Below, piece after piece: positions 29-26,710 of a stretch of DNA of 39,512 bases; positions within the stretch are counted from its first letter, which is position 1, and the number at the start of each line of letters is the position of its first letter. The notes under the pieces were generated by a model that had not been told where the DNA came from, searched no databases, and saw only the letters and a list, made by a program, of their open reading frames with translations. A program made the position numbers and the translations under genes. The stretch lies in IMG/VR virus record IMGVR_UViG_3300032285_001690, positions 1 through 39,512 of that record. The stretch is one strand, 5' to 3'. The stretch comes from a virus.

Positions 29-36
29 GGAGAGGG
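29..36 (+). promoter_or_regulatory. Ribosome binding site of the giant fibre gene
   Basis: A purine run, GGAGAGGG, ends 6 nt before the ATG at 43. Together with the following AAACTAA it resembles the leader of the gene at 16883 (GAGGAAACTAAC before ATG), so the two fibre-region genes seem to share a leader type. No promoter is visible in the 42 bases before the gene; it probably lies off the left edge. Confidence 0.6.
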
Positions 37-42
37 AAACTA

Positions 43-3000
43 ATGGCTACTAATGACGATTTCATAGTCAAAAATGGCCTTGTGGTTCGTGCCGCAAGTT
101 CAACATATCAATCAACAAGCACTCAGACCGGCGCAATCATAACGCCCGGCGGCCTAGGTATAGGTCAAAACGCCTATGTGGGCGGAGAATTACACGCTAT
201 TAGTTCTGCTACATTTGTTTCAAATGTACAGATTGGCGATGTTACAAAAATACTTTCCACAGCAGTTAACACAGCAACAGTAACACCGGCTGGCAATGCT
301 TTGCAAGTTGCTGGCGGCATTTACGCACAGAATATTAATATCGGCGGCATCGGTTTAATCAAAGGCTCGCAGATCTTAACACAAGCTGATGGTTTCAAAG
401 GCGGTATCATTACCGAACCTTTAACGATCAGCACAACTACCCAATCCACAAGTACATATTCGGGAGCATTAACTTCTCCTGGTGGTATTGGTATTGGCGG
501 AAACTTAAACGTCGGCGGCTATGCACAAATCACAGGAACAACATACCTGTTTGGCGATGCATACGGCAACGGTCAACATCTATTAACAAATTTAGTAGCA
601 AGTCCTGGACCAGGCATTGCATCTAAAGTAATCCTTAACGGGTACACAGCAACAATCATTACCACTAACACTGGCGTATTGTCAGTAGTAGGTGACGGCA
701 CTATTGGAGTAAACACTTCAACTGGAAACGTTACATTAACTAACTTAGGTGTTACATACATCCAAGCTGGTCAAGACATTACAGTTGACTTTAATACTGG
801 TACCGTTACAGTTAGTGACAACAGTACATTCCAGTCAGTTTTATTACGTGGTAATAACACTGACCAAACAGTTAATATTAATAACGGTGCTATCAGTAAT
901 GACCCTACTCTAAACAATGCCTTAAACGTTCTAGGTAGTATTGGTGCAACACAATTAACAGTAGCCAACACCAGTTATATCGGTGGAGCTATCGTTGTTA
1001 CTACCAGCAACATTAATAGATATGTTGGTGGTATTATTACCAATACCTTACGTATTCAAAATACAACAAGCTCAATAAGCACTACAACAGGTGCTCTAGT
1101 TGTTGATGGTGGCGCTGGTATTGGTGAAAACGTAAACATCGGTGGTAGTTTATTTGTTCAAGGCGGCATAACTGTACTTGGTAGCTATACTACAGTTACT
1201 ATTAATTCAACACAAACAGTATTCACAGATCCTGTTATTGATCTAGGTTCTGGATATAACAATAGAGCATTGGCAATCAATGACGGATTAGATAGAGGTG
1301 TATTACTACACTACAATACTGGTTCAAATACTACGTTCGATAACCATGCGTTCTTTGGTCGTCAGGCAAGCACAGGTGATTTAGTTTATCTGACAGATAT
1401 TGTTCCTGGTGGAAACGAAGTCGTTCCAAATCCTTACGTAGGCGAGTGGGGAACATTCAAAACTGGTCAAATTATTTTAACAAGCCCAACTGCAAGTACA
1501 AGCACAACTTCCGGTGCGTTGACTGTAGTTGGTGGTATTGCTACTCGAGGCAATTTAAATGCTCAAGCAGTTTACGATGCAGGCAATCGTGTAGTTACTA
1601 ACGTTAATGTTACATCAACATTATATGCAGTTGGTAGTGCAGGATCCGGTATCGCTGTACAATCAACAGTTGTAACAGGGTCATACGTAACAGTTAACTT
1701 AACAAACACAGGTATCGTTGGATTAGCATTTTCAAATGGTATCTACATCGGTGGACCTGGTGGCGTAACAGCAACCAATGGAATGATGGTTGGTGTTCCG
1801 ACTATCTATAACAAAGGTGTCTTAACAGTTAGTACAACAGGTGACTTAGGTGTTGCTTGGGACGGCGAGTCGTTCTATACTGGAAATATTACTCTTAGCA
1901 ACTCATCTACACTACAAACAGTAACTACTCGTGGTAGCTCAACTACTAATATTGTTAAGATTTTAAATCAAACAACCAGCACAATCGACACCGCAACAAA
2001 TGCGTTACAAGTACTAGGTGGTATTAGTGCCAAAACAATATTAATTACAGACTCTGGTTATATCAACGGAGCTCAAATTGTTACTTCGTCAACAATTAAT
2101 AGTTTCTCTGGTGGTACGATTAATAATTCTCTGTACATTGCCAGCACACAAACATCAACAGGATCCACTACAGGTGCATTGCGTGTGGCAGGCGGTGTTG
2201 GTTTACAGACTACATTAAATGTTGGCGGAACAGCATCGTTCCTTAACACAACAGGAACAGCATTAAGTGTTTCAGGCAATGCGTTATTCAGCAGTACAAT
2301 TTATGTTAACACAGTATCTGCACTAACACTAGGTTTAGATCTAATCAGTATCGGCACTGGCACAGTTAACATTAACGGTATTGACATTCTACATTATGAT
2401 ACAGACATTTGGTATGTGTCTGACGTAGGTAATGACGCTAATGACGGACGTAGAACAGCGTCAGCTTTTAAAACAATTAAGAAAGCTCTAAGCGTTGCGT
2501 CGGCTGGACAGGTTGTTTATATCGAACCAGGTACATACACTGAAGTATTCCCTTTAACTATTCCAGCAGGTGTTACAGTCAAAGGCGCTGGCTTACGTGC
2601 AACTATCGTTCAACCGACCAGCGGCACAAATACACAAGATGCGTTCTTACTAAACGGTGAAACAACAATCACTGACTTTACAGTTACTGGATTCTACAAA
2701 CCAGGTTATGCATTAAAATTTGCTCCCGGCGCAAAGATTACAACTAAGAGTCCTTACGTTGAACGCTTCTCTGTAATCACTAAAGGTTCAGTGACCAGCG
2801 CCAGCGATCCATTTGGATTTAATCAAGGTGACGCTGGTAACGGCGCATACTTAGATGCCGCGGTACTAGATGCAACAAGTTTAGAACCAGCATTATTATT
2901 CAACGAAACAACATTTATTGTTCCTAATGCTACTGGTATCTTCATGACCAACGGCGCTCGTGCAGAATTGTTGAACGGCTTTACATATTTTGCCAGCACA

Positions 3001-6000
3001 TCAGTTAATGCACAGGCAGGCGCGACAGGTTTTGCTGGTTCTGGTAAGACAAGATTAAAACTTCAAGGCGTTACAGGCACGTTTGGCGTAGGTGACATTA
3101 TCACCTATAAAGATCCAAGCGGCAACATAAAAGCACAAGGTACTATTGCAAGTACTGACGGCACATACGTTTACCTAGCAGGTCCAGTTTGGGGATTTGA
3201 AACAATTACAGATCGTGCAGGCAAATCTGTTACTGCCTACGGTAACGCAAAACAAAGCACATCTCAAAAGAAATTTGGAACCAGTTCATTTGTAGGTGAT
3301 GGTTCTGGCGACTACTTAGAAGTACTCAGCGATAGCGATTTCCAATTTGGTAGTCTAGGTAGCTATACAGTTGAAGCATGGGTTTACTTAAACTCATTAG
3401 GCAAAGTACATCGCATTTTCTACAAAGGTTTAACAACCAGCTCAAATATGAGATTGCGTGTTACTACTGGTAATGTATTGCAAGCAGGCCACGGCAATGT
3501 ACAAATTACAGGTATAACATCACTTACAACCGGTCAATGGTATCATGTTGCTGTTGTTAGAAATGCAGATATAGGAACATTTAGAATTTACTTAAATGGT
3601 TCCGTTGAAGCATATACAACTTCAGTTACAGATAACGTTAACAATACAGATCCATTTAGCATTGGCGGTGAGTCATCGACTGCATCAGATAGCATTGATG
3701 GATATATTGACGACTTCCGTGTTAGCAATGTTGCACGTTATACTTCAGGAACATACACTCTTCCTACAGCAGAACAAACGTCTGACTCTGCAACAATATT
3801 GATGTTAAACTTCAATGGCGGTAATCTTTCAACTACATTTGTTGATTCTGCTAATGGTACACAAAACGTATATTCAAATGCGGCCGCAAGTGCTACACGT
3901 ATTGCTCTAGCTGACTATCATCAGTTTGGTGCAGAATTACGTTGTATTGGTTCTGCGGCAGTCTACGGTACACAAGGTGTTGTTGCTAACGGTACTGGCA
4001 CAGACTTAAAATTAATTGCGTTCAATATGAGTCATATTGGCGCAGGTAAAGACTTTTCAAATGACATTAGTCTTGTTGTACAATCAAACGAAGTTATTCA
4101 AACTAACGGCGGTCTTGTATATTTCCAAACAGTTGACCAAAGCGGTAACTTCCGTGTTGGTAACAGCTTCTTGATCAATGAACAAACAGGTAATGTAAGT
4201 TTTGGTAATGCTAACGTTAACTTATCTAGTTTAAATCAACTACAGATTACAGACGGCACACACTACGCTACTATATTGCCAACCAGCATTACAGTTGGTA
4301 ACCTGAGTCTTTCTGGTAATAGTTTATCTGCATTAAGTGGTGGAATTTCTATTACTCCGTCAAGCGGCATTACAACAATTAACAGTAGTGCAACAGTTGT
4401 TGGCGGCTTAACAATTAGCGGATCGTTTGCTGTTCCTGCATTAAATGATTCAACAAGCACAAATACTGGTGCTTTAACTGTTGGCGGTGGATTAGGAGTT
4501 GGCCTACAAGTACAAGCTGGTAGTACCATTACTACCTATAGTGCGGCCGGTTCAACAAGTTCTATATTAAACAATGCTGTAGCTGTTCCTAACGGTGGCA
4601 TTGGCGCACAAACATTATACCTAACAGGTAAAGGCTATTCAGGCGGTAACGAAATCGTTACAACTGCTACTATTGGTTCGAGCTTGGGTGGTCTTGTTCC
4701 TAACTCATTAAGAATTACAAGTCTTGCACAAAGCACCAGCACAACCACTGGCGCATTGATTGTAGACGGTGGCGTTGGTATCGGTGGCAATCTAACAATT
4801 GGTGGATCGTTAAATCTATTAGGTGGTGGATCAGTACTAACAAACGTTACTGCAACTACTGATGCATATATTGGTGCAAGCGTAACTAAGAGTGGCACAA
4901 CGGCAACAATTAACATTGTTAACTTAGGTGTACAAACAGTATCAGCAGGTTCTGGAATTTTCGTGTCAGGCAACACTGGCACGGTGACAATTAGCAATAC
5001 TGATACATTAGATACAGTACTTGCTCGTGGAAGTTCTACTTCTCAAATCATAACAATGAGCAATGTTAGCTATAGTACTTCGACTATAGCAGGCAATGCT
5101 TTACAAGTTACAGGCGGCATAGGTGCATCACACTTATATCTAAGTACAGACGGTTGGATAGCCGGAGCACAAATTGTTACTTCAAGTACAATTGGTTCAT
5201 TTGTTGGCGGCCAGGCAGTTACAAGTCCGTTGCAAATTACCAGCACAGCTACTTACGCATTGAACATTCAAAATGGTGGCGCTTACATCGGCGGTACCGT
5301 TGTTATTGGCGGTAGCTTACAAGTCGCAGGTACTGTTACTTCTATCAACAGCACAAGTGTTGATATTGGTAACAAAGTTATATTCTTAAGTACACTTAGC
5401 GGTGCTCCTATACAAACTGCTGGTGCAGGTATTGTTGTAGGTAAAGATGACGGTATTGAAAATGATCGTTGGGCGAGTTTATTGTTTGACGGTGGTTCAG
5501 GTCCCGCAGGCAATTGGATATCCAAGGCTGGTCTAAACCCATTTACTGATAGCTACTACGGAATTGGTAGTGTAGCATTACAATGGAACAGCGCATATAT
5601 TAAAACTATCAATGCAAGTTCTGTAATAACAACAAGTTCAGTATATAGCACAAGTACTATAGCAGGCAATGCTCTACAAGTCACAGGTGGTGTTGGCGCT
5701 AGAAGCATTTACCTAACCGACAAGAGTTATATCGGTCCTAACGAAATTATTACTACTGGTAACTTGGCAAACTATGCAGGTACATATGATGGTCAAACTC
5801 CATTACACTACCCTGTACAGATTGTAAACACAAGTACTTCAACATCTATCAATTCTGGTGCTCTGCAAGTGTCAGGCGGCGTTGGTATTGTAAATGATTT
5901 GTGGGTAGGCGGATCTGGACATTTTGGTAATAGATTGTATGTAACCAATACAGCAACCATTGGCTCTGGTGTACTATCAACAGCGCCGACTAATGGAAGT

Positions 6001-9000
6001 CTAGTAGTTACTGGCGGCGTTGGCGTACAAGGTAACATGATTGTTAACGGCACTATACAAGGCTATAGTGATTTATCGATTACTAATGATGTTACAGTTG
6101 GAAATAATCTAAACCTTACTGCTGGACTGTTGAATCTCAACAATACAGTTACAAACAATATTACTGCCGCTAATACACTAACCATAGCTACTAATTCCAA
6201 TGGTGATATTAATATCGGCAACAGTAACCAGAATATAAACATTTACCCTAACGGTCAAGTTTATATAGATGGCAACTTACAGGCATTTGGAACCATTTGG
6301 GCAAATACTAACTTAGCGGCTGTTAGTTCGTCTACTGGTGCGTTAAGAGCCTATGGCGGTATTAGTACACAGCAGTCTCTATATGTTTGGAATAATATCA
6401 CCCAAGCTGTTGGAAAATTACGTAATTTATATTCAACTCAAAGTAGTTTAACTTCTATTACTGGCAATGCTGTAGAAATAACATCTGGAGGTATAGGTGC
6501 CCAGACATTATACTTAGAGCAGGCTGGAACTATCGCCGGTGCATTGATTGTTACTACAGCAACTATCAATCAGTACTCTGGTGGTACAATTGGTAATACA
6601 CTGAACTTATCTAACACTACAAACTCACTAAGCACAACAACTGGTGCGCTAACAGTAGCAGGCGGTGTTGGTATTGGCAAAGATGTTAACGTCGGTGGTA
6701 GCCTATACTTACAAGGTGACTTGTATGTAGATGGCAATCGTACAATCGTTAACTCAAACGAAATTCAAACTGGCGACAAAGTTATCTACGTCAGTACAGG
6801 TGCGTTAACTGCAATATTAGCCAGCGGGTCTGGTCTAGCAGTTGGCAAGCCAGGCGCTGTAAGAGCAAGTTTATTATTTGACGGTGTAAGTAGCTGGAGC
6901 TCAAACGCAAGTATTAATCCAAGTGGTCAAGGAATTGGGTTAGGTACCGGAACAGGTGCCTGGAGTTATGGTTATTTCAATACTATCAAGATTATCGGTA
7001 ACAGCTCGTCAACAAATACATTAACTGGTAGCCTACAAGTTACTGGTGGTATTAGTGCAAGTGAAAACTTATATTTAGGTACAAACCGTACAAGTACATT
7101 AACAAATACCTACAACGCATTAACAACATTAGGTGGTGCTTATATTGGCGGCCAATTAACTGTTACTGGTCCAGATGCATGGGTAAATGGTAGCCCAGTT
7201 GTTACAGCAACCGATGCTAAACAGATTGCTTTCACAAATACTACTGATGCAACCAACACACAAACTGCGGCTGTTACAGTTGCAGGCGGTTTAGGTGTCG
7301 GCAGTACGTTGATTGTAGGTTATCAACAGTTCATTACAAGTTTATTAGAGTCAACTGCAACTGCTAACCAAAATGCATTAGTAGTGTCTGGTGGTATATA
7401 CTCAGATATGTTGATGGTCAACCAGATCGCAACAGTTAACGGTGGGGTAGTATTAACAACAGCAACTATTGGTAACTATGCGTTCAACGGCGGAACTATT
7501 ACAAAACAAGTTATCATTAATAGTTCTACACAAGCAACAAGTACTATTACTGGCGCATTCCAAGTAACGAATGGCGGAGCTGGTATCGGCGGCAACGTAT
7601 ACATTGGTGGCGAACTACGTGTTCAGGCTAACTCTTCAACTTTCAAAACAATTACAGCCGGAACAGCTACAATTACTACAGCTACAATTAGCTCAAGCAT
7701 ATTCAACACAGCAACTCAGGCAGGTAATGCTTTACAAGTCGTTGGTGGCGGTAGTTTTGGATACTTGCGTGTACAGAATCAAGCATGGGTCGGTGGCTAT
7801 CCTGTTATTACAGCGCAGAACATTAACAGTTACTCTGGTGGTACAATTAATAATCCGTTAGTTATCAACAACGGTACACAGGCCACATCGACAACTACTG
7901 GTGCCCTACAAGTTACTAACGGTGGCTTAGGTGTAGGCGGTAACATTTGGTCCGGTGGATATTACGAGTTTGTTGATCCGTTCAACATATCACCAACATA
8001 TGATGGTTACTTTGGTATCAACTCAACCTTAGATGCAGTTAACATTGGTTCTAATAATACTGCAATTCCGTTGGGAATTGTTCAAAACAAGATTGAAATT
8101 GCCCGTCATACAACTTATAACCCTAACGGATCTGCTCTAGGTGCAGTACTTGGTGTCGGCGTAACTGCTCCTCAGTATGGTATACACCTAGCAGGAAGTT
8201 CAGCAGGTACATGGGGCTGGATACAAACAGCCAACACAATGAGCAACCTAGTGAGTCTCAACAACACACTACATAGTTCATTATTTGGTGGCGATACATC
8301 TAAGATCGCAATGGCCGCGTTCTCAAGCGATAATGGTTCAACATTTGAACACTGGATCGCATCTGGTGGTACAAGTGCAGGTAGTCAAGTTCCATTAGTA
8401 TTTGCTGGTGGCGCATGGGATAATAATCTTGGCACTAACACAACAGTTGAGTGGGCAAGATTTACTGCTACTGGAAACTTTGCGGCTAAGAATAATATTA
8501 TTACAACAGCCGCAGGATTTAGTACTGCAACTATCGCCAGCAACGCAATGCAAGTCAGTGGCGGTGGTTGGTTTGGTAACTTAAATGTAACTGGTGCGGC
8601 GTGGGTAGGCAACAGTAAAGTTATCACAGCGGCTAATATTGGTAGCTATTCATTTAACGGCGGTACAATTACTACTCCGTTGTATGTAAACACAACTACA
8701 CAAGCAATAAGCAACTCGAGCGGTGCTATCCGTACAGCAGGCGGCATATCGGCAGTAGGTAACATCTACGCAGGCTTAAACTTCTACGGTAACTTAATTG
8801 CTACAAACGTAACAGCAACTACGATTAATTCAGCAGGTAGCCCATTAGGAATCAACGGAACTGTATCAATAAGCACGGCAACTGATCAAACAGGTGCAGG
8901 TACTGGGGCATTAGCAGTATCTGGTGGCGCAAGTATTACCAAGAGCCTGTATGTTGGAAGCAATTTAAGCAGTACATCAACAGTTGGTGGAAACGCAGTC

Positions 9001-12000
9001 CAGGTGGTTGGAGGCATTGGCGCTCAAACACTATACCTAACAGACAGCGGCTGGATTGGCACAGCACAGATTGTTACAAGTGCTAACATCAACAGCTTCT
9101 CTGGTGGTACAATTAACAATGCATTAACACTTGCTAACACAGCAGATGCAACAAGTACACAAACAGGTGCATTAGTTGTTACAGGTGGTGTTGGCATTGG
9201 CAAGAATCTATGGGTTGGCGGCAATGCAAACGTACTAGGTAGCATGTATCTAACAGGTGATTTGTATGTTGACGGAACACAAACATTTGTTAATAGTACA
9301 AACATCCAGACTGGCGACAAGGCAATTTATCTAAGTACAGCATCGGGTAATGCGGCTCTTGCAATTAACTCTGGTTTGTTTATTGGTAACACTACAGCAC
9401 CTTATGCTTCTATGGTGTTCGATGGTATTAATGCTTGGGTAAGTCAAGGAAATATTATTCCGTCTACATCGGGTGGTTGGAATCTTGGAAACAATACTAC
9501 ACCTTGGAATACATTATACAGTATAACTGGTAGATTCTCAGGGGCTGTTGAATCAACAACTACACAAACAGGAAGTTTACAAGTTGTTGGCGGCGCCGGC
9601 ATTGGTAAGAGTCTAACTGTTGGAAATACAGCAACAGTCCAAAGCACATTATACAACCTAACGAGCTCAACAGGTAACGCAATTTACACACCTGGCGGTA
9701 TTGGCGGTAAGTATCTAAGTATTGATACAAACGGTTATATCAATGGTAGTCCAATCGTCACAGTTGCTAACATCGGTGCTTATGCATACAACGGCGGATA
9801 TGTTGCAAATGCAATCGTTATTAATTCAACTACTAACGCTACAGCCGCTCTAAACACAGGTTCATTAGTAACCTATGGTGGTGCCGCAATTACTAAAGAT
9901 GTATATGTTGGTGGCACAGTTAATATTGCAAGTATTGCCGCAAATACAACTACTATTGCCAACAACGCATTAAGTGTTGCAGGTGGTATTGGTGCTAACA
10001 CATTATACATTGCTACAGCAGGTTACATTGGTACAAGCCCAATTATTACAGCGGCTAATATCAATAGCTTCTCTGGTGGTACAATTAATGCGGCCTTAAC
10101 AATTAACAATGCCACACAATCAATCAGCACAACAACTGGTGCATTGATTGTTACAAATGGCGGATTTGGCCTAGGCGGTAACATTTACACAGGCGGCTAT
10201 GCGGCTATTGGTGTAAACTACGGTAACGCAGGTACATTAGGTAACACAGCGACTGGTAGCTTACAAGTATTTGGTGGCGCTGGTATTAACGGCAACCTAA
10301 CAGTTGCAAGCCAAGGTTACTTTGGCGGTAACGTAGGTATTAATACTGCTCTTCCAGGACAAGCACTTGAAGTTAACGGTAACATCGTTGCTGGTGCTTA
10401 TAACAGTTCGCGTGTACAGATTACAAACGCAGGCGGTTCTCAGTCAATTTACGAAATTAAGTTAACTGAAGCAAGCCCACGTTGGCAGATCGGCCGTGAC
10501 TTGTTCAGTACAGATATATCCGGTATTGCGTTTATGAACGCTAACCAAACATTTGCCGCAGGCGGAGCAGGTGTTGGATCAATATCTGGTAGCAACGGTT
10601 ACTTAGGTTTCTACACAACTAACGGTACTAACCAAACACTGCGCGGAGTGATCGACGGTGGATCACAAGGTGGTAACTTAGGACTTGGCGTTTCAAGTAA
10701 CTTACAAGGTAAGATACATATCAACGGTGCTTCTGCAAGCGGTTATGGTATCTATGCTACAGGTAACAACGATCATATCATAAGATCAGGTGCAACAAAC
10801 TTATATACTGATTTACAAATCACTAGAACAGGTGTTGGATCAAACGCAGATTGGAGATTAGGTGTAGCGGGAGCCGCAAGTAACTTTATTCCTACTGCGG
10901 CCGCAGGCGATGCCGTAATGACTTACGGTAGCAATTTGATATTTGCTAATGCCGCTAACTATGAAATGGCTCGCTTTGGTAATGGTGCATTTACTATTGC
11001 AACGGCTACACAAGCAATCAGCACACAAAGCGGAAGTATTGTAACTTACGGTGGTGCTGGCATTGGTGGTAACTTGTTTGTTGGCGGAACAGCAAACATT
11101 ACAGGTACAACATATATCAGTTCTAACATTGCAAGTACTTCAACTATTGCAGGTAACGCATTACAAGTTACTGGCGGTATTGGCGCACAAAGCATTTACT
11201 TAACTAACAACAGCTGGATTAACGGTTATCAAATTGTTACAACACAAAACGTTGGTTCGTTCACTGGTGCGTTCAACGGCGGTACAATTACTAATCCGTT
11301 GTTTGTACAAAATTCAACCAATGCCGCAGGTACTGGTTCGGGAGCATTGTATACAACAGGTGGTATTGGTATAACCCAAGACTTGTATGTTGGCGGTCAA
11401 ACAACTCATGTAGGTATTACTAACCTAAGTGGTATTGTAACAGTTATCAATGCTACACAAGCAACAAGCACAACAACTGCCGCAGTAAAAATTACTAACG
11501 GTGGTTTAGGTGTTGGTGGTAACATTTGGACTGGTGGTAACATTAACTTTAATACATCAGTTAACAAGATTCGCTGGCAGACTACACAAATTGCAGTCGG
11601 CGATGATGGCGGTGCTGGTCAAGGTTCGATATTCTTTAACAGTAATAATGCCGGTTACCCATCGTCAACAAGTTCAGTACAAAGCGTAGTAATTGGTGCA
11701 TACGCTGGCCCAGCACTGAGTGGTGCTCAAACTACCTTAGTTGGTAACAATGCAGGTTACACGCTAACCAGTGGTGCAGGAAACACATTAATTGGTTTCA
11801 ACGCAGGTAATTTAATTGCCGCGGGTACATATAATACCTACGTAGGTAATAATGCAGGCGCTGGTAACAATTCAACATTGAGCGCAGGTGTTGGTGTTGG
11901 TTATCAAGCTCTACAAGTTGCTACAGGAAACCAAAACGTTGCGTTAGGCTATCAAGCAGGTAAGGCAATTACCAGCGGTGCATACAACGTTGTAATTGGT

Positions 12001-13650
12001 GGTATTGATGGCTCAACTATTGCTACATCAAGCAACAACATATTAATTGCAGACGGTCAAGGCAACTTACGTGCATCATGGGATAGTGCTGGTGCATTAA
12101 CAAATTCCGGTCAAGTTAAGATCACTAACGTAACAAGTGCAACAAGCACATCTACTGGTGCATTGATTATCAGCGGTGGTTTAGGTGTTGCAGGAGATAT
12201 CTATGCACGTAATATCTACGCAAACGGCTCATTAGTTGGCACAGGCGGATCAGGCGGATCAGGCGGATCATCTACATCTACACCATACATTGCAGTTACA
12301 AGTGCAACAGTTTCTATCTCAACATTAACAGGTGCAGAAATTGTAACTGGCGGTGTTGGTATTGGTAAAGATTTGTTTGTTGGTGGTCCAGTATCAATTG
12401 GATTGAACACTTACTTAAACAGTGGTGCTAACTTACAACTATCTGGTAACCAAATATCAAGTGGTGCAAACATTGCTCAAGGCCTATATGCTCAAGGCGG
12501 CAACTTATTAGTATACAGTAATGATTGGTCGCAAGGTAACTGGTCTAAGTTAAACACAACATTCCAAGCAGGTAGCACATATAGTCCAGACGGCACATTA
12601 AATGCAACCAAACTTGTTGAAACAAGTGCCAACGGTAACCACTACTTCCAGCAGACAATCAGTCAAGCCGGCCCAATTACAGTTAGTGTATTCATGCAAT
12701 CCTCTGATCGTACATATGGTGCAATTAATGTAACTATCGCAGGTCAAGCACACTCGGCATGGTTTAACTTGTCAACTGGTGCAGTGGCAAATACAGCAGG
12801 CGCATTGTATCCTGTAGTAGGACGTTGTGAATTTGTTCCATACGTTGGTACAGGTAACTGGTACCGTTGCTCATTAACAATTTGGGCACCAACCAGCGCA
12901 ACAGCAACAGCATTTGGCATCTACACAGCGATCGGTTCGGGTACAGTTATTAACGATAGCTTAACATCATACACTGGTACAGCAGGTTTTGGTATCTACA
13001 TATTTGGTGCGCAAGCAGAGCCAGGTTATATCGCAGGCTACTACACACCTACAACAAGTGCGGCAATTACATCAACGGCTAACAACTTGTACGCTGGTAA
13101 CAGTTTATATGTTGCAAACACAGCAACAGTAGCAGGTAGCACAGTAACAACTCAAGCAACATTGATGACACAGCTTGGTGGTACAACAGTAAACCAAATT
13201 ATCATCAATAATGCTACACAAGCAACAAGTACTGTTACTGGCGCCCTACAAGTAATTAACGGCGGTGTTGGCATCGGCGGTAACTTGTACGTTGGTGGTA
13301 CATTATACGCAACAGCTAAGAGCTTCTTAATCGATCATCCAACTAAACCAGGACAGAAATTACAGTACGGTAGTTTAGAAGGACCAGAAAATGGAGTTTA
13401 TGTACGCGGTCGTTGCACGTCAGGTATGATTGAATTGCCAGATTACTGGACAGCATTAGTTGATGCAGATTCAATCACAGTTGATATAACACCAATTGGC
13501 GGACATCAGAAACTTTATGTAGACCGTATTGAGGACAACAAAGTTTATATTGGTAATGAAAATATCATGAGTAAGAAAATTAACTGTTTCTATACAGTAT
13601 GGGCTGAACGTAAAGACGTTGGCAAACTAGACGTAGAAGGAGGAAAATAA
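43..13650 (+). CDS. Giant repeat-built tail fibre protein (4535 aa)
   Basis: This is a huge virion fibre, probably trimeric and used for host attachment. Most of it is repeats of two kinds: TSTxTGALxVxGGxGIGxN followed by a VGG turn, and AGNALQVxGGIGAQ followed by YIxGxxIVT and SGGTIxN. Recognisable modules are a right-handed beta-helix start near residues 790-860 (NDANDGR, AFKTIKKAL), a LamG/concanavalin-like jelly roll near 1065-1255, and a segment from about 1290 containing ELRCIGSAAVYG, a style known from T4-like cyanophage fibres. YadA-like repeats (IGYxAG type) lie at about 3880-3990, a Gly-Gly-Ser linker at 4068-4076, a spike or carbohydrate-binding-like domain at about 4160-4340, and a conserved fibre end from 4427 (DHPTKPG, YGSLEGPENG). 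No S74 motif is visible. It is over three times the length of T4 gp37 and leads the fibre operon. Fibre identity is firm; the receptor is unknown. Confidence 0.9.
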   Translation: MATNDDFIVKNGLVVRAASSTYQSTSTQTGAIITPGGLGIGQNAYVGGELHAISSATFVSNVQIGDVTKILSTAVNTATVTPAGNALQVAGGIYAQNINIGGIGLIKGSQILTQADGFKGGIITEPLTISTTTQSTSTYSGALTSPGGIGIGGNLNVGGYAQITGTTYLFGDAYGNGQHLLTNLVASPGPGIASKVILNGYTATIITTNTGVLSVVGDGTIGVNTSTGNVTLTNLGVTYIQAGQDITVDFNTGTVTVSDNSTFQSVLLRGNNTDQTVNINNGAISNDPTLNNALNVLGSIGATQLTVANTSYIGGAIVVTTSNINRYVGGIITNTLRIQNTTSSISTTTGALVVDGGAGIGENVNIGGSLFVQGGITVLGSYTTVTINSTQTVFTDPVIDLGSGYNNRALAINDGLDRGVLLHYNTGSNTTFDNHAFFGRQASTGDLVYLTDIVPGGNEVVPNPYVGEWGTFKTGQIILTSPTASTSTTSGALTVVGGIATRGNLNAQAVYDAGNRVVTNVNVTSTLYAVGSAGSGIAVQSTVVTGSYVTVNLTNTGIVGLAFSNGIYIGGPGGVTATNGMMVGVPTIYNKGVLTVSTTGDLGVAWDGESFYTGNITLSNSSTLQTVTTRGSSTTNIVKILNQTTSTIDTATNALQVLGGISAKTILITDSGYINGAQIVTSSTINSFSGGTINNSLYIASTQTSTGSTTGALRVAGGVGLQTTLNVGGTASFLNTTGTALSVSGNALFSSTIYVNTVSALTLGLDLISIGTGTVNINGIDILHYDTDIWYVSDVGNDANDGRRTASAFKTIKKALSVASAGQVVYIEPGTYTEVFPLTIPAGVTVKGAGLRATIVQPTSGTNTQDAFLLNGETTITDFTVTGFYKPGYALKFAPGAKITTKSPYVERFSVITKGSVTSASDPFGFNQGDAGNGAYLDAAVLDATSLEPALLFNETTFIVPNATGIFMTNGARAELLNGFTYFASTSVNAQAGATGFAGSGKTRLKLQGVTGTFGVGDIITYKDPSGNIKAQGTIASTDGTYVYLAGPVWGFETITDRAGKSVTAYGNAKQSTSQKKFGTSSFVGDGSGDYLEVLSDSDFQFGSLGSYTVEAWVYLNSLGKVHRIFYKGLTTSSNMRLRVTTGNVLQAGHGNVQITGITSLTTGQWYHVAVVRNADIGTFRIYLNGSVEAYTTSVTDNVNNTDPFSIGGESSTASDSIDGYIDDFRVSNVARYTSGTYTLPTAEQTSDSATILMLNFNGGNLSTTFVDSANGTQNVYSNAAASATRIALADYHQFGAELRCIGSAAVYGTQGVVANGTGTDLKLIAFNMSHIGAGKDFSNDISLVVQSNEVIQTNGGLVYFQTVDQSGNFRVGNSFLINEQTGNVSFGNANVNLSSLNQLQITDGTHYATILPTSITVGNLSLSGNSLSALSGGISITPSSGITTINSSATVVGGLTISGSFAVPALNDSTSTNTGALTVGGGLGVGLQVQAGSTITTYSAAGSTSSILNNAVAVPNGGIGAQTLYLTGKGYSGGNEIVTTATIGSSLGGLVPNSLRITSLAQSTSTTTGALIVDGGVGIGGNLTIGGSLNLLGGGSVLTNVTATTDAYIGASVTKSGTTATINIVNLGVQTVSAGSGIFVSGNTGTVTISNTDTLDTVLARGSSTSQIITMSNVSYSTSTIAGNALQVTGGIGASHLYLSTDGWIAGAQIVTSSTIGSFVGGQAVTSPLQITSTATYALNIQNGGAYIGGTVVIGGSLQVAGTVTSINSTSVDIGNKVIFLSTLSGAPIQTAGAGIVVGKDDGIENDRWASLLFDGGSGPAGNWISKAGLNPFTDSYYGIGSVALQWNSAYIKTINASSVITTSSVYSTSTIAGNALQVTGGVGARSIYLTDKSYIGPNEIITTGNLANYAGTYDGQTPLHYPVQIVNTSTSTSINSGALQVSGGVGIVNDLWVGGSGHFGNRLYVTNTATIGSGVLSTAPTNGSLVVTGGVGVQGNMIVNGTIQGYSDLSITNDVTVGNNLNLTAGLLNLNNTVTNNITAANTLTIATNSNGDINIGNSNQNINIYPNGQVYIDGNLQAFGTIWANTNLAAVSSSTGALRAYGGISTQQSLYVWNNITQAVGKLRNLYSTQSSLTSITGNAVEITSGGIGAQTLYLEQAGTIAGALIVTTATINQYSGGTIGNTLNLSNTTNSLSTTTGALTVAGGVGIGKDVNVGGSLYLQGDLYVDGNRTIVNSNEIQTGDKVIYVSTGALTAILASGSGLAVGKPGAVRASLLFDGVSSWSSNASINPSGQGIGLGTGTGAWSYGYFNTIKIIGNSSSTNTLTGSLQVTGGISASENLYLGTNRTSTLTNTYNALTTLGGAYIGGQLTVTGPDAWVNGSPVVTATDAKQIAFTNTTDATNTQTAAVTVAGGLGVGSTLIVGYQQFITSLLESTATANQNALVVSGGIYSDMLMVNQIATVNGGVVLTTATIGNYAFNGGTITKQVIINSSTQATSTITGAFQVTNGGAGIGGNVYIGGELRVQANSSTFKTITAGTATITTATISSSIFNTATQAGNALQVVGGGSFGYLRVQNQAWVGGYPVITAQNINSYSGGTINNPLVINNGTQATSTTTGALQVTNGGLGVGGNIWSGGYYEFVDPFNISPTYDGYFGINSTLDAVNIGSNNTAIPLGIVQNKIEIARHTTYNPNGSALGAVLGVGVTAPQYGIHLAGSSAGTWGWIQTANTMSNLVSLNNTLHSSLFGGDTSKIAMAAFSSDNGSTFEHWIASGGTSAGSQVPLVFAGGAWDNNLGTNTTVEWARFTATGNFAAKNNIITTAAGFSTATIASNAMQVSGGGWFGNLNVTGAAWVGNSKVITAANIGSYSFNGGTITTPLYVNTTTQAISNSSGAIRTAGGISAVGNIYAGLNFYGNLIATNVTATTINSAGSPLGINGTVSISTATDQTGAGTGALAVSGGASITKSLYVGSNLSSTSTVGGNAVQVVGGIGAQTLYLTDSGWIGTAQIVTSANINSFSGGTINNALTLANTADATSTQTGALVVTGGVGIGKNLWVGGNANVLGSMYLTGDLYVDGTQTFVNSTNIQTGDKAIYLSTASGNAALAINSGLFIGNTTAPYASMVFDGINAWVSQGNIIPSTSGGWNLGNNTTPWNTLYSITGRFSGAVESTTTQTGSLQVVGGAGIGKSLTVGNTATVQSTLYNLTSSTGNAIYTPGGIGGKYLSIDTNGYINGSPIVTVANIGAYAYNGGYVANAIVINSTTNATAALNTGSLVTYGGAAITKDVYVGGTVNIASIAANTTTIANNALSVAGGIGANTLYIATAGYIGTSPIITAANINSFSGGTINAALTINNATQSISTTTGALIVTNGGFGLGGNIYTGGYAAIGVNYGNAGTLGNTATGSLQVFGGAGINGNLTVASQGYFGGNVGINTALPGQALEVNGNIVAGAYNSSRVQITNAGGSQSIYEIKLTEASPRWQIGRDLFSTDISGIAFMNANQTFAAGGAGVGSISGSNGYLGFYTTNGTNQTLRGVIDGGSQGGNLGLGVSSNLQGKIHINGASASGYGIYATGNNDHIIRSGATNLYTDLQITRTGVGSNADWRLGVAGAASNFIPTAAAGDAVMTYGSNLIFANAANYEMARFGNGAFTIATATQAISTQSGSIVTYGGAGIGGNLFVGGTANITGTTYISSNIASTSTIAGNALQVTGGIGAQSIYLTNNSWINGYQIVTTQNVGSFTGAFNGGTITNPLFVQNSTNAAGTGSGALYTTGGIGITQDLYVGGQTTHVGITNLSGIVTVINATQATSTTTAAVKITNGGLGVGGNIWTGGNINFNTSVNKIRWQTTQIAVGDDGGAGQGSIFFNSNNAGYPSSTSSVQSVVIGAYAGPALSGAQTTLVGNNAGYTLTSGAGNTLIGFNAGNLIAAGTYNTYVGNNAGAGNNSTLSAGVGVGYQALQVATGNQNVALGYQAGKAITSGAYNVVIGGIDGSTIATSSNNILIADGQGNLRASWDSAGALTNSGQVKITNVTSATSTSTGALIISGGLGVAGDIYARNIYANGSLVGTGGSGGSGGSSTSTPYIAVTSATVSISTLTGAEIVTGGVGIGKDLFVGGPVSIGLNTYLNSGANLQLSGNQISSGANIAQGLYAQGGNLLVYSNDWSQGNWSKLNTTFQAGSTYSPDGTLNATKLVETSANGNHYFQQTISQAGPITVSVFMQSSDRTYGAINVTIAGQAHSAWFNLSTGAVANTAGALYPVVGRCEFVPYVGTGNWYRCSLTIWAPTSATATAFGIYTAIGSGTVINDSLTSYTGTAGFGIYIFGAQAEPGYIAGYYTPTTSAAITSTANNLYAGNSLYVANTATVAGSTVTTQATLMTQLGGTTVNQIIINNATQATSTVTGALQVINGGVGIGGNLYVGGTLYATAKSFLIDHPTKPGQKLQYGSLEGPENGVYVRGRCTSGMIELPDYWTALVDADSITVDITPIGGHQKLYVDRIEDNKVYIGNENIMSKKINCFYTVWAERKDVGKLDVEGGK
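1177..1410 (+). repeat. Fibre module, copy 1 (divergent)
   Basis: This is the most divergent copy of a module found four times in the giant fibre. It begins with a beta strand ending in INSTQTVF, continues with a DPVIDLGSG segment and ALAINDGLDRGV, and ends at a jelly-like strand pair. Its place after a VGG turn matches the other copies at 5326, 6721 and 9259. Confidence 0.5.
3226..3800 (+). other. LamG/concanavalin-like domain within the giant fibre
   Basis: The translated stretch has a typical laminin-G/pentraxin jelly-roll pattern: KFGTSSFVGDGSGDYLEV, then YTVEAWVYL, then QWYHVAVVRN, FRIYLNGS and DDFRVSNVARY. Such folds bind glycans. It lies between the beta-helix start and the ELRCIGSAAVYG segment, so it interrupts or caps the helix. 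Confidence 0.75.
5326..5610 (+). repeat. Fibre module, copy 2
   Basis: Second copy of the four-fold module. It carries NSTSVDIGNKVIFLST, AGIVVGKDDG, ASLLFDGG, then a Trp-containing segment and LQWNSAYI at the end. Copies 3 and 4 preserve the same order of elements. Confidence 0.6.
6721..6990 (+). repeat. Fibre module, copy 3
   Basis: Third copy. It begins LYVDGNRTIVNSNEIQTGDK and continues with VIYVST, GLAVGKPG, ASLLFDG and a Trp strand. It is clearly related to copy 4, which begins LYVDGTQTFVNS. Confidence 0.65.
9259..9520 (+). repeat. Fibre module, copy 4
   Basis: Fourth copy: LYVDGTQTFVNS, then NIQTGDKAIYLST, GLFIGNTTAP, ASMVFDGINAW and PWNTLYS. It aligns with copy 3 almost residue by residue through the IQTGDK core, which points to internal duplication of a block of about 90 residues. 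Confidence 0.65.
11686..12003 (+). repeat. YadA-like head repeats in the giant fibre
   Basis: The translation repeats an xxIGxxAG turn about every 20-25 residues: VIGAYAG, LVGNNAG, LIGFNAG, YVGNNAG, GVGYQA, ALGYQAG. This is the left-handed parallel beta-roll pattern of trimeric autotransporter heads, and it occurs again in the fibre at 14341. The two blocks look paralogous. Confidence 0.7.
12244..12270 (+). repeat. Three tandem 9-bp repeats coding Gly-Gly-Ser
   Basis: The unit GGCGGATCA occurs three times without a mismatch and encodes a flexible GGS linker at residues 4068-4076 of the giant fibre. Because the unit is a multiple of three, gain or loss of copies would change linker length without breaking the frame. 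Confidence 0.85.
13637..13643 (+). promoter_or_regulatory. Strong ribosome binding site inside the end of the giant fibre gene
   Basis: AAGGAGG lies in the last codons of the giant fibre gene and 8 nt before the ATG at 13652. The next gene begins 1 nt after the fibre stop, so the two are probably translationally coupled. Confidence 0.65.
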
Positions 13651-13651
13651 T

Positions 13652-14305
13652 ATGTCAATTTCAATAGGACCGTATATTCCTCTTTCGGGATTAGTGTTTA
13701 TGGCTGATCCTCGTAATACAAAATGTTACCCAGGTACAGGTACAGCCGCATACAATCAAATAGATAATCAAGCATTAACACTGAGCTCTTCGAGTGCATG
13801 GTCGGGCAACTATTTTACTCCCGGTGCGGCGTATACTATTGTTAGCAATAACTCTTATTCACTAAGCATGACTTCTGGGTATACTGTAATCCAGTTTATG
13901 AACTTGATAAGTCGCGCAGGCGGAACATTTGGTTATACTTCTGGTTCAAATACTGCTAACTTATACATGGGTAATGCAACAAATATGCGTTGGGAAACTT
14001 ACCTAACAGGCGGCGATCTTAGCTCAAATACAACTGTGCCTTTGAATACATGGCATTGCTGGGCAGGTAGTTTCAGTGGAACAGGTTCAGCGGGCGGAAC
14101 AGCCACCAGCAAACTTTACTATAACGGAGTATTAGATGCTCAAAATAACTTAGCAGGTTCTGCAAGTATAGCTGGCAACTTCCAGCTATTCTACAGCGGA
14201 CCACCTAACGGTAGTCTTGGACCAACATTATTTTACAACAGAGTGTTAAGTGACACTGAAGTAAAATTAGTGTTCCAGGCATACCGAGCAAGTTTTGGAA
14301 TTTAA
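13652..14305 (+). CDS. Small lectin-fold (LamG/concanavalin-like) virion protein
   Basis: The 217-residue protein looks like a single jelly-roll domain. The start GLVFMADPRNTKCYPGTG, a central segment with NTWHCWAGSF and KLYYNGVLDAQ, and the ending FYNRVLSDTEVKLVFQAYR are typical of concanavalin/LamG-like domains in phage fibre regions, where the final NRxLSxxEV motif recurs. There is no signal peptide or membrane segment. The gene starts 1 nt after the giant fibre gene with a strong Shine-Dalgarno sequence, so it is co-translated with it. It could be a separate glycan-binding subunit on the fibre. Structural role is likely; the ligand is unknown. Confidence 0.7.
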   Translation: MSISIGPYIPLSGLVFMADPRNTKCYPGTGTAAYNQIDNQALTLSSSSAWSGNYFTPGAAYTIVSNNSYSLSMTSGYTVIQFMNLISRAGGTFGYTSGSNTANLYMGNATNMRWETYLTGGDLSSNTTVPLNTWHCWAGSFSGTGSAGGTATSKLYYNGVLDAQNNLAGSASIAGNFQLFYSGPPNGSLGPTLFYNRVLSDTEVKLVFQAYRASFGI

Positions 14306-14340: not shown

Positions 14341-16857
14341 ATGGCATATACTGATCGTAATATTTTAATAACGCCAAACATTGGTTCAAGCACAGCCGAG
14401 CCGATTATAAAATTTACTGGCGGCGCATCTGCCAGCTCTGCATCTACGTATGTGCGTGTACTAGATAATGGAACACAAGCATGGGAAGGCACAAACGGAC
14501 AATTACAAAGTGTAATTGACAGTATGGCAGGTTACTTGTATACTGTTACAGATAAGAGCGGTATACCAAGTCTTATAGTACAAGATACTGGGGCAATCAA
14601 TATTGCTCCATATAACGGTATTACGTATATTGGCGCATCTACAAGCCCTGTACAATCTACAACTACACAAACAGGTAGCTTACAGGTATTCGGTGGTGTT
14701 GGTGTAGGCGGAAACTTAAACATCGGCGGCTCATTCGCAATGAACGCTAACTTAGGTGTAGGCGGCGCTGGAGCCACATACGGTATTACAGTTAACACAA
14801 CAACAAACGTTGCTGGTTGGTTCTATAGTGTTCCAAACGGAACTGGTCTATCTCTAATGGTAGGCGGTAGCACATATCCAAACGGTATTGGCTTTAACAG
14901 TTATAATAACGTAGGTACAACGTATGTAATCGGTACTGGCTATAACGGACAAATGACACTGAGTGGCGGAGTTATAGGATTTGATGTTTCGGCGGCCAGC
15001 CAATCAGCAGGTGCATTAGCTACACAGTTGAGAGGACTTAGTGTAAGTTCTACAGGTATTTTAGTACCACAATCTACAGCAATTACTATTGCATCGGGTA
15101 TCGCATCTACGGGTACAGGCGCTATTGTAACCTACGGTGGTATATCGGCAGGCGGTGGCATCGTTACAGGAACTGATGCTTTCCATAGTGGTGTACGTTT
15201 TGGTACAGGTAACTCAAGTATTTCAACAAACTTGGTTGTTGGTACTGGTGCTGGCGCTAACTTATTAACAGGCGGTACTAATGCTTTAATTGGTTACTAT
15301 GCAGGTAATGCTCTAACAAGTTCTGCAGGTAACACAGCAATTGGTTATCAAGCACTCTTAGCACAAACCGCTACAGGCGGCAATAATACTGCTATTGGCT
15401 ATCAAGCAATGTATACCGCTAACAACACAGCCATGCAGAACAACGTGGCTATCGGTTATCGTGCGTTAGGTACTGGTAACGGTGGCTTCTACAATAACAC
15501 AGCTATTGGATACCAAGCAGGTTTCCAAATGGCAGGCGGTTATCAAAATACCTTAATTGGTTATAACGCAGGTAATGCTCTAACCAGCGGTGCAAGTAAT
15601 ACATTAGTTGGTTATGGTGCTGGTACAAGTATTGGGGCCGCAATCAACAACGCAGTTATCTTAGGTGGCAATGCTGGTGGTACTATTGTTTCTAACGGTA
15701 TCATTATTTCAGATGGCGCAGGTAACATTAGATTAATTGCAGACGGTAGTGGTAACTGGACAATGGCGGCAGGTACCGCGGCTAACGGTACAACTGGTGT
15801 AGGTACATTGATTGTTACTGGTGGTGCAAGTATATCAGCAGGCCTTACTTTAGGCGGCGCATTATATATTGGCGGCTCGGCAGGTACCAGCGGTTATGCA
15901 TTAACATCAACAGGTACAGGTCTTGCATGGGCACAAACAGGTGTTACAGTTTCCAACATTCAAACTAACGCTACATATTATCCTCTCTTTACCAGTTCTG
16001 TAAGCGGAGCAATAACAACAGAATATGTTGATAGTAGTCACTTAACTTATAACCCAAGCACTGGTACACTATCATCAACTATATTCGTCGCAGGTACAAC
16101 ATTCCAAGGACCGATTGGTTCCGGTGTTACAGCCTACTCAGGCAACTTTACAAGCATCACTGGTAGCAATACATTCTCAGTAAGCAACACAGGTGTTACA
16201 CATTCTATTACTGGCCAAGCAAGTGGAGCATTAACACTTAACAATAACTCTGTAGGTAATGGATCGGGTATTTGTTTATTCGTTAACGGATCAGGTGACG
16301 TACAGCTGACCGGCGGCGGCTCAATTATGTTTGGTAGCTATAACTACGGTGCAAGTACATATATTCGTGGATACACAGCTGGTGAATTGTACATTTATCG
16401 TTCAGGTAATAACTTGTTCCAAACAAACGGAACAAGCGCAATGCAAGTCAACGGTACACTATATGTAACCAGCGACATTTATTCTAATACATCTGATATT
16501 AGACTAAAAACAGTTCTTGCTCCCTTAACCAGCGCCAGTGCTAAACTTAAAACACTTGACACATTTACTTACGTAAACAATGAACTTGCACTTAGTTTAG
16601 GACAAAAATCTACTCGTGAACAGGTCGGTGTGAACGCGGCCCAAGTTCAAGCCGTACAGCCCGAAGCTGTAGGAATTGCGGCGTTAGATGTAGATGAAAA
16701 CGGCCAGTCTAAATCAGGTGAAAACTACCTAACAGTACAGTACGAAAAATTAGTACCGTTAGTAATTGCAGGACACAACGAGCATTCAGACGAAATAGCG
16801 CAGTTAAAAGAAGAAATAGCGCAGTTAAAAGCATTAGTAGCCCAGCTACTCAAATAA
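14341..16857 (+). CDS. Tail fibre with YadA-like head and S74 intramolecular chaperone (838 aa)
   Basis: This is a second virion fibre. It opens with a short unique N-terminus, then one TTTQTGSLQVFGGVGVGG repeat like those of the giant fibre. At about residues 298-470 it has many IGYxAG/IGYQA turns (YadA-like beta-roll). Further on come fibre elements such as LTYNPSTGTLSS. The end is a Peptidase_S74 domain: SDIRLK at 718-723 supplies the Ser718 and Lys723 expected for self-cleavage, with the same spacing of five as in phage endosialidases. The last 25 residues form a coiled coil (EIAQLKEEIAQLK). The released piece would be about 121 residues and acts in the family as a trimerisation chaperone. 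A late promoter and short leader precede the gene. Confidence 0.9.
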   Translation: MAYTDRNILITPNIGSSTAEPIIKFTGGASASSASTYVRVLDNGTQAWEGTNGQLQSVIDSMAGYLYTVTDKSGIPSLIVQDTGAINIAPYNGITYIGASTSPVQSTTTQTGSLQVFGGVGVGGNLNIGGSFAMNANLGVGGAGATYGITVNTTTNVAGWFYSVPNGTGLSLMVGGSTYPNGIGFNSYNNVGTTYVIGTGYNGQMTLSGGVIGFDVSAASQSAGALATQLRGLSVSSTGILVPQSTAITIASGIASTGTGAIVTYGGISAGGGIVTGTDAFHSGVRFGTGNSSISTNLVVGTGAGANLLTGGTNALIGYYAGNALTSSAGNTAIGYQALLAQTATGGNNTAIGYQAMYTANNTAMQNNVAIGYRALGTGNGGFYNNTAIGYQAGFQMAGGYQNTLIGYNAGNALTSGASNTLVGYGAGTSIGAAINNAVILGGNAGGTIVSNGIIISDGAGNIRLIADGSGNWTMAAGTAANGTTGVGTLIVTGGASISAGLTLGGALYIGGSAGTSGYALTSTGTGLAWAQTGVTVSNIQTNATYYPLFTSSVSGAITTEYVDSSHLTYNPSTGTLSSTIFVAGTTFQGPIGSGVTAYSGNFTSITGSNTFSVSNTGVTHSITGQASGALTLNNNSVGNGSGICLFVNGSGDVQLTGGGSIMFGSYNYGASTYIRGYTAGELYIYRSGNNLFQTNGTSAMQVNGTLYVTSDIYSNTSDIRLKTVLAPLTSASAKLKTLDTFTYVNNELALSLGQKSTREQVGVNAAQVQAVQPEAVGIAALDVDENGQSKSGENYLTVQYEKLVPLVIAGHNEHSDEIAQLKEEIAQLKALVAQLLK
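15232..15700 (+). repeat. YadA-like head repeats in the second fibre
   Basis: The translation contains about eight turns of the form IGYxAG or IGYQA (ALIGYYAG, AIGYQALL, AIGYQAMY, AIGYRALG, AIGYQAGF, LIGYNAGN, LVGYGAG). NALTS occurs twice next to them. The block resembles 11686-12003, so the two fibres share an exchangeable module. Confidence 0.7.
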
Positions 16858-18950: not shown

Positions 18951-19770
18951 AAAAACAAACACATACATCAAAAATATAGAAAATATTGTATCTTCGGATG
19001 TAACAGAAATACATATTGACGACGATTTTCTAAAAAGATACGATATGGGTGATTTTGAAAAAGAAATCATGACCTATGCCGTACATTCAAATATGGGTAT
19101 GACTGCCTATCAGTGTCAAAACTTTGTAGCCCGCAGTCAACTTACACCCTGGCGTCAAGTTCGCCAAGCCTATATGGAACTTGAAGCACGGTATCATGCT
19201 TATCAAGAAATCAAAGCCAGCCTCCGCAAAGCAGAATTACTACGTAAAAAGTGGATACGCGATCAAGCCGAAGCTGTTGATGAAATCGCTAAAGAAATGT
19301 TACAGGTAGATATCGATAAGAACGATTACGATATTACTATCTGGAAACGTAAAATGCTCCAAGCAGAGCGAGAAATTAATGCATTCTTAGAAATCGTTAA
19401 ATTCTACGCAAAGACTGAGGAAGACCTCGAATGGTTTGCCGCAGAAAATGCAGAAGAAGAGCGTAAGTATTGGATTGCACGTATGGGTAAACAAGCCGCA
19501 ATGGATATTATCAGTTACGGTCGTGTAGCATCAGGTAATATGGATAGTATCGCTATGATGCCAGAAGGCGATCAAATTGAAGCTTTACAAATGGCCACAA
19601 AGTATGCTGGCCAGGTCCAAGCAGGGATACATAATATATCGCTAGGCGCACAAAGCTCTATCGATAAATTACTAGAGAGTAGAGATGAACGAATCCCAGA
19701 CTACTGCGAAGACGCAAAAAATATTCAGCTTACCGATAAACCCAAAATTAACGGAAGCACAATACTTTAA
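18934..19770 (+). CDS. Coiled-coil protein of unknown function
   Basis: The 278-residue protein is highly charged and mostly helical: long amphipathic stretches rich in Glu, Lys, Arg and Ala span about residues 65-190. A hydrophobic PEGDQIEALQMATKYAGQ segment follows. No catalytic motif, signal or membrane segment is seen. Its start overlaps the previous gene by 17 nt, with AGGTG upstream, which suggests coupled translation, and its last 86 nt overlap the next gene. I do not recognise the family; a scaffold or assembly factor for the fibre region would fit, but nothing in the sequence proves it. Confidence 0.75.
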   Translation: MDSNSKKTNTYIKNIENIVSSDVTEIHIDDDFLKRYDMGDFEKEIMTYAVHSNMGMTAYQCQNFVARSQLTPWRQVRQAYMELEARYHAYQEIKASLRKAELLRKKWIRDQAEAVDEIAKEMLQVDIDKNDYDITIWKRKMLQAEREINAFLEIVKFYAKTEEDLEWFAAENAEEERKYWIARMGKQAAMDIISYGRVASGNMDSIAMMPEGDQIEALQMATKYAGQVQAGIHNISLGAQSSIDKLLESRDERIPDYCEDAKNIQLTDKPKINGSTIL

Positions 19771-26645: not shown

Positions 26646-26668
26646 CCAAGTAAAATTTGGTGCAACCG

Positions 26669-26675
26669 CTAAATA
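26669..26675 (+). promoter_or_regulatory. Late promoter element for the tail sheath gene
   Basis: CTAAATA, the form common in T4-like cyanophages, lies 35 nt before the gp18 ATG at 26711. The leader of about 30 nt has GGGAG at 26697-26701 as ribosome binding site. Confidence 0.65.
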
Positions 26676-26710
26676 CTGATGAACAAACCATTACATGGGA
26701 GATGCATAGA

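Follow-up and report, generated by a model that had tools for sequence, protein, structure and literature searches.

A giant repeat-built fibre-like protein with a conserved order of units in an uncultured phage most likely related to PA5oct and Phosso

A viral fragment of 39,512 nucleotides (the window; IMG/VR record IMGVR_UViG_3300032285_001690) opens with a single gene of 13.6 kb, which raises the questions of what so large a protein does and whether the repeats that compose it still change in number. The gene is one uninterrupted ORF on the plus strand, positions 43 to 13,650, which encodes 4535 residues without an internal stop. It has an ATG start with a good ribosome-binding sequence before it, and 2 bases separate its stop from the start of the next ORF. 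That neighbour, a 217-residue protein, is probably in the same operon. The window starts just 5' of the giant ORF, so the upstream gene is absent from it. The gene and its surroundings are as follows.

29..36, +, ribosome-binding-like GGAGAGGG, 5' of the ATG (read in the sequence)
43..13650, +, giant fibre-like virion protein, 4535 aa, 456.8 kDa, predicted pI 5.0 (ORF and full-length homologues)
13652..14305, +, 217-aa neighbour with a lectin-like Laminin_G_3 domain (domain match; syntenic in a 331-kb relative)
14341..16857, +, second fibre, 838 aa, with two A units and a Peptidase_S74 chaperone domain (profile matches)

Repeat units and their origin

Profile models were made from the protein's own repeats, and each position was assigned to the best-scoring model. 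This competition leaves 28 units of type A (~36 aa), 17 of type B (~53 aa), 4 of type C (~85 aa) and 3 of type D (~90 aa). The A profile yields 41 matches at E<1e-3, whereas 50 residue shuffles average 0.02; the contrast for B is similar, and shuffled proteins are almost devoid of A or B matches. The single open ORF and the shuffle-controlled profiles confirm the original prediction of one repeat-built, fibre-like gene of 4535 residues. The units fall into five segments, assigned as listed.

97..2244, +, repeat segment 1, A B A D B A C B D B A (aa 19-734)
4432..6066, +, repeat segment 2, A B A D B A C B A A (aa 1464-2008)
6304..7974, +, repeat segment 3, A B A C A B A B A B A (aa 2088-2644)
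7975..8514, +, non-repeat block (aa 2645-2824)
8515..10326, +, repeat segment 4, B A A B A C A B A B A A (aa 2825-3428)
10393..10995, +, non-repeat block (aa 3451-3651)
10996..11553, +, repeat segment 5, A B A A (aa 3652-3837)

With C and D ignored, 16 of the 17 B units are directly followed by A. A shuffle probability of 6e-5 tests for zero adjacent B-B pairs, again with D and C ignored, and serves as a guide only, as one B-B pair does occur with a D domain between its members. The protein had been described as mostly two alternating repeat types. The alternation holds, but "mostly two" is a slight overstatement because A and B cover 48% of the protein and all four unit kinds 60%, the array being interrupted by about seven non-repeat blocks (aa 738-1463, 2009-2087, 2645-2824, 3451-3651, 3842-4026, 4147-4333, and 4430-4535).

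The copies have diverged, as had been proposed. The A units share a mean pairwise protein identity of 38%, the DNA repeat families (36-134 nt) are about 60-92% identical, and the DNA of the gene contains no tandem array whose period exceeds 18 nt. Growth by internal duplication is supported by a composite B-A-C module that occurs in four copies, two of which have a D in front of them. Its third and fourth copies (aa 2132-2316 and 2975-3165) share 54% identity along 185 aa (E=5e-48). These relationships indicate that the array was built by old, nested internal duplications.

Fixed order, purifying selection and two variable sites

Ten full-length homologues of 4437-4559 aa are present in other IMG/VR contigs, with identities of 92, 87, 86, 75, 60, 59, 57, 51, 49, and 49%. 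The last two are near-identical to each other, leaving nine distinct sequences, and every relative that carries the full gene comes from a metagenome. The order of units is kept in every full-length homologue apart from a few borderline A/B assignments; in the most distant ones a D or A call also differs near the variable sites. The largest indel is 30 aa, and no B-A pair has plainly been gained or lost. The best match of an A unit is its positional counterpart for 39 of 40 units in one homologue (L002) and for 11 of 35 in another (L010), where chance would give about 1 in 35. In a tree of the C domains, C1 splits from C2-C4 at 100/100 and the grouping is mainly positional, strongly so for C1 and most C2 copies and less clearly for C3 and C4.

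The array had been proposed to be either old or under diversifying pressure. It is old, because the order is identical in homologues at ~49% identity, and pressure of that kind across the array is rejected by dN/dS ratios of 0.08-0.29. Pairwise values lie at 0.08-0.12 in comparisons with the three nearest full-length relatives and rise to 0.29 for distant relatives, where dS is saturating; all 150-codon windows with a defined ratio give 0.41 or less. These results suggest that the array is now held at a fixed number and order of units, with selection presumably acting on fibre length and domain spacing.

An array that still expands and contracts, variable in length and under diversifying selection, would fit the clear traces of ancient internal duplication and the two regions that differ among homologues (below). 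It is nevertheless very improbable, given the unit order common to all full-length homologues, borderline A/B calls aside, and ratios well below 1 in each resolvable window. Even less credit can be given to repeats inflated or collapsed by short-read assembly. The sequence does come from a metagenome, and the repeat-rich gene sits at the extreme end of its contig, but the DNA copies are divergent enough for reads to be placed, and independent contigs differing by 8-51% in protein carry the complete gene of 4437-4559 aa in the same order. With at least nine such contigs besides the window, the artefact named in the original prediction as what would refute it is itself largely refuted. It is tempting to suppose that giant repeat fibre genes gain and lose units without constraint; in this one, order and length are conserved down to ~49% identity, which makes fibre length a testable selected trait.

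Diversity is confined mainly to two sites, a swapped cassette and a replaceable domain.

6067..6303, +, exchangeable cassette, aa 2009-2087 (conservation, and DNA identity against the flanks)
11566..12120, +, GNTLIGFNAG-type domain, aa 3842-4026, replaced in some homologues (alignment)

Mean conservation of the cassette is 33%, against 70% overall. Homologues L003 and L022 are 90% identical overall and 18% identical in the cassette, while L003 and L008 are 74% identical overall and 69% identical in the cassette. Between backbones with 76-86% identity in the flanking DNA, the cassette DNA falls to ~55% identity. On account of this difference and of the discordant identities, the cassette has been exchanged and not point-mutated, being swapped between fibres that are otherwise ~86-90% identical. 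A search of isolate phages for the source of the cassette gave no match. A search for a diversity-generating retroelement that might act on the cassette found no RVT_1 reverse transcriptase in five relatives of 73-331 kb, all possibly incomplete. The second site is kept in the five closest sequences, takes a different version in L010 and L016, and is replaced by repeat-like sequence in L012, L005, and L006. One could imagine a molecular ruler with a plug-in site, in which ~45 shaft units are fixed for reach and the mid-shaft cassette, swapped by recombination between phages, acts as a lateral binding or escape module apart from the tip; we regard this extension as doubtful.

Domains of the fibre and its attachment

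The remaining features lie at the ends of the protein and between repeat segments 1 and 2.

43..96, +, N-terminal segment MATNDDFIVKNGLVV..., probable particle-proximal anchor (conservation and similar starts elsewhere)
2380..4452, +, beta-helix-like region with a LamG-like insert, aa 780-1470 (common to cyanophage proteins annotated as gp7 baseplate wedge)
12242..12270, +, Gly/Ser linker (GGS)n, possible hinge (sequence and alignment)
12481..13149, +, tip domain, aa 4147-4369 (resembles Rcc01080, the RcGTA head spike fibre, as well as phage E217 gp45 and Pa193 gp46)
13330..13650, +, C-terminal domain, aa 4430-4535 (also present in fibre-like proteins of cyanophages, of Flavobacterium phages, and of many uncultured phages)

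The N-terminal segment, at 86% conservation, is among the best conserved stretches, and similar starts are found in other repeat fibres. The beta-helix/LamG region matches phrog_13163 (E=1.8e-169) in a PHROGs scan; Pfam LamG matches within it are weak and below cutoff. P-HM1 gp7 is 39-47% identical to this region, the likeness to cyanophage gp7 being limited to aa ~598-1800 and not extending to the whole protein. Long proteins of uncultured phages (979-3124 aa) that are otherwise differently built also contain this region. Its pectate-lyase-type beta-helix look at aa 780-1020, beside the LamG-like domain, together with a weak match to a 45-residue stretch of rhamnogalacturonan lyase (E=0.0067), might point to a multi-domain tailspike or depolymerase, in which the beta-helix (aa 781-1020) would cleave capsule and the rest would serve as scaffold. 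We consider this improbable: the lyase match is short as well as weak, no catalytic family scores above the Pfam cutoff, and the region is one module of a much longer repeat protein and is found again in other architectures.

The linker before the tip is Gly-rich in 10 of 10 aligned sequences. The tip is homologous to Rcc01080 (E=8.7e-18 with a single sequence, 3.8e-24 with a profile) and also matches baseplate/tail proteins of E217 and Pa193. Tagged Rcc01080 binds cells to a greater extent when the capsule is present (PMC10218006); by analogy, the tip would be of the polysaccharide-binding type. The likeness to Rcc01080 is restricted to this region, the RcGTA protein being a 325-aa capsid spike without a repeat shaft. 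The C-terminal domain (~106 residues; loci L046-L125) was confirmed in at least 524 stretches of viral contigs and occurs in phage tail-fibre-like proteins; it is apparently a very common, uncharacterised fibre end domain. A Pfam scan of the giant protein gave no match to Peptidase_S74, which sits in the 838-aa neighbour instead, a point against the reading favored below. A PDB profile search with the repeat region gave no match. Foldseek returned a usable match from the tip domain only, to the same E217 and Pa193 proteins found by sequence. Because the AlphaFold monomer models of the repeat and tip regions are poor (mean pLDDT of 44.5 and 41.5), the shaft fold and the trimer described below are ones that we infer.

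The reading that we favor, with reasonable confidence, is that of a giant receptor-binding fibre, modular in build, which belongs to a jumbo T4-like phage and whose old array is now fixed in number and order. The N terminus would hold the fibre on the particle, with the baseplate or its vicinity as the most likely site. Some 45 A and B units would make up a long beta-structured shaft, probably a trimer, into which side domains are set (beta-helix/LamG-like, C, D, and GNTLIG type). Beyond the Gly/Ser hinge would come the tip and then a C-terminal folding or trimerisation domain. The nested duplications that made the array would be long past, count and order now answering to selection on length and spacing, and variation would enter mainly by exchange of the internal cassette and replacement of the one distal domain.

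The site of attachment is the part of this proposal most open to another reading. A head (capsid) fibre or tail whisker, likewise a long adhesive structure by which phage would accumulate at the cell surface, is a less probable arrangement than a baseplate tail fibre but one that carries some weight. Attachment to the head is kept in play by the tip homologue, itself a head spike, and by the position of the gene downstream of the portal and capsid genes. Furthermore, the RaK2-like relatives CBB and Atu_ph07 bear hair-like whiskers (119 nm in CBB), and capsid fibres exist in other jumbo phages. The baseplate is favored by the beta-helix domain held in common with cyanophage proteins annotated as baseplate wedge gp7, by the tip matches to E217 and Pa193 baseplate/tail proteins, and by the syntenic PA5oct genes, which are annotated as tail fibres.

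Genome context and comparison with known fibres

In the 331-kb relative, genes for portal, major capsid protein, a 3591-aa fibre-like protein, a 128-aa protein, and a 2296-aa A/B-repeat protein are followed by the 4437-aa counterpart of the giant gene, the LamG protein, and the S74 fibre, and then by NUDIX-like, sheath-stabiliser, neck, sheath, tube, and TerL genes. The giant gene amounts to 4% of this relative. Its earlier description as a third of the window is correct arithmetic within the 39.5-kb fragment and fails as a share of the genome; it is an effect of the fragment, since relatives reach at least 331 kb. The adjacent 2296-aa gene of the same uncultured lineage, which lies outside the window, also carries A, B, C, and D units (20 A-profile matches, 2 C, and 6 D), at half the length and with other ends. 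The further-upstream giant fibre-like gene (L039/L040, L043/L044) differs in length between two relatives (3591 and 2952 aa), in contrast to the 2296-aa and ~4500-aa genes, whose lengths hardly change. The locus points to an uncultured jumbo phage family with several giant fibre genes side by side.

The closest isolates by TerL (46-48%) and sheath are PA5oct and Phosso. T4-type TerL, sheath, tube, and capsid are all present in a PA5oct-like gene order, placing the phage in the PA5oct/RaK2-like branch; to judge from these genes, its most likely identity is that of a jumbo T4-like phage with PA5oct and Phosso among its relatives. PA5oct, Phosso, and Atu_ph07 resemble it in TerL, sheath, and the gene frame around the PA5oct fibre slot. 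In PA5oct, however, that slot is filled by a 1008-aa tail fibre and three smaller fibre/tail genes in place of the 4535-aa gene; several of these fibre/tail products were found by mass spectrometry, according to the database record. Coverage of aa 1544-4535 by any isolate is at most ~6%, and a scan of bacterial genomes for a host or prophage found no relative.

The T4 long tail fibre (gp34-gp35-gp36-gp37) is likewise long and modular, with presumed N-terminal attachment and a C-terminal receptor tip, but it consists of four proteins, the largest of 1289 aa, and spans ~145 nm. A PHROGs scan of the giant protein gave baseplate-wedge, structural, and unknown families and no long-tail-fibre (gp34/gp37) family. 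In T4, gp34 (1289 aa) measures 700 Å and gp36+gp37 (1247 aa) about 740 Å (PMC3004832), from which we compute a spacing of 0.054-0.059 nm per residue. At that spacing, 4535 residues would span ~245-270 nm, provided that the entire chain is extended and trimeric; the side domains would make the fibre shorter. The suggested reach far beyond T4 fibres is thus plausible as an estimate and is not a measured length. The other suggestion, a fibre wrapped around the particle, gained no support from the analysis.

Very long virion proteins are also known from T4-like cyanophages (P-RSM6 CPXG_00128, 8573 aa; P-HM1 PHM1_097, 3676 aa; P-HM1 gp7, 2425 aa), and gp7 has the beta-helix/LamG region in common with the giant protein. 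The P-HM1 proteins and the examined 8031-residue part of the P-RSM6 protein are without A, B, C, or D units. Size alone is not new, because the P-RSM6 virion structural gene, nearly twice as long, and the 3676-aa P-HM1 tail fibre gene are known. A literature search for named giant phage proteins returned nothing specific.

We note three further proteins in the window. The tail sheath (26657-30079) has 1140 aa from a TTG start, or 1125 aa from an ATG at 26702; it exceeds the PA5oct sheath (879 aa) in size and, by a small margin, those of Atu_ph07 and Phosso in length. At 30808-32652 lies a second tail-tube-like protein of 614 aa, of which tube profiles match only aa ~55-239; its counterpart in the relative has 512 aa. 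Finally, a 564-aa protein (19685-21379) strongly matches phrog_1458, of unknown function; its match to a phage DNA methyltransferase profile is weak and partial.
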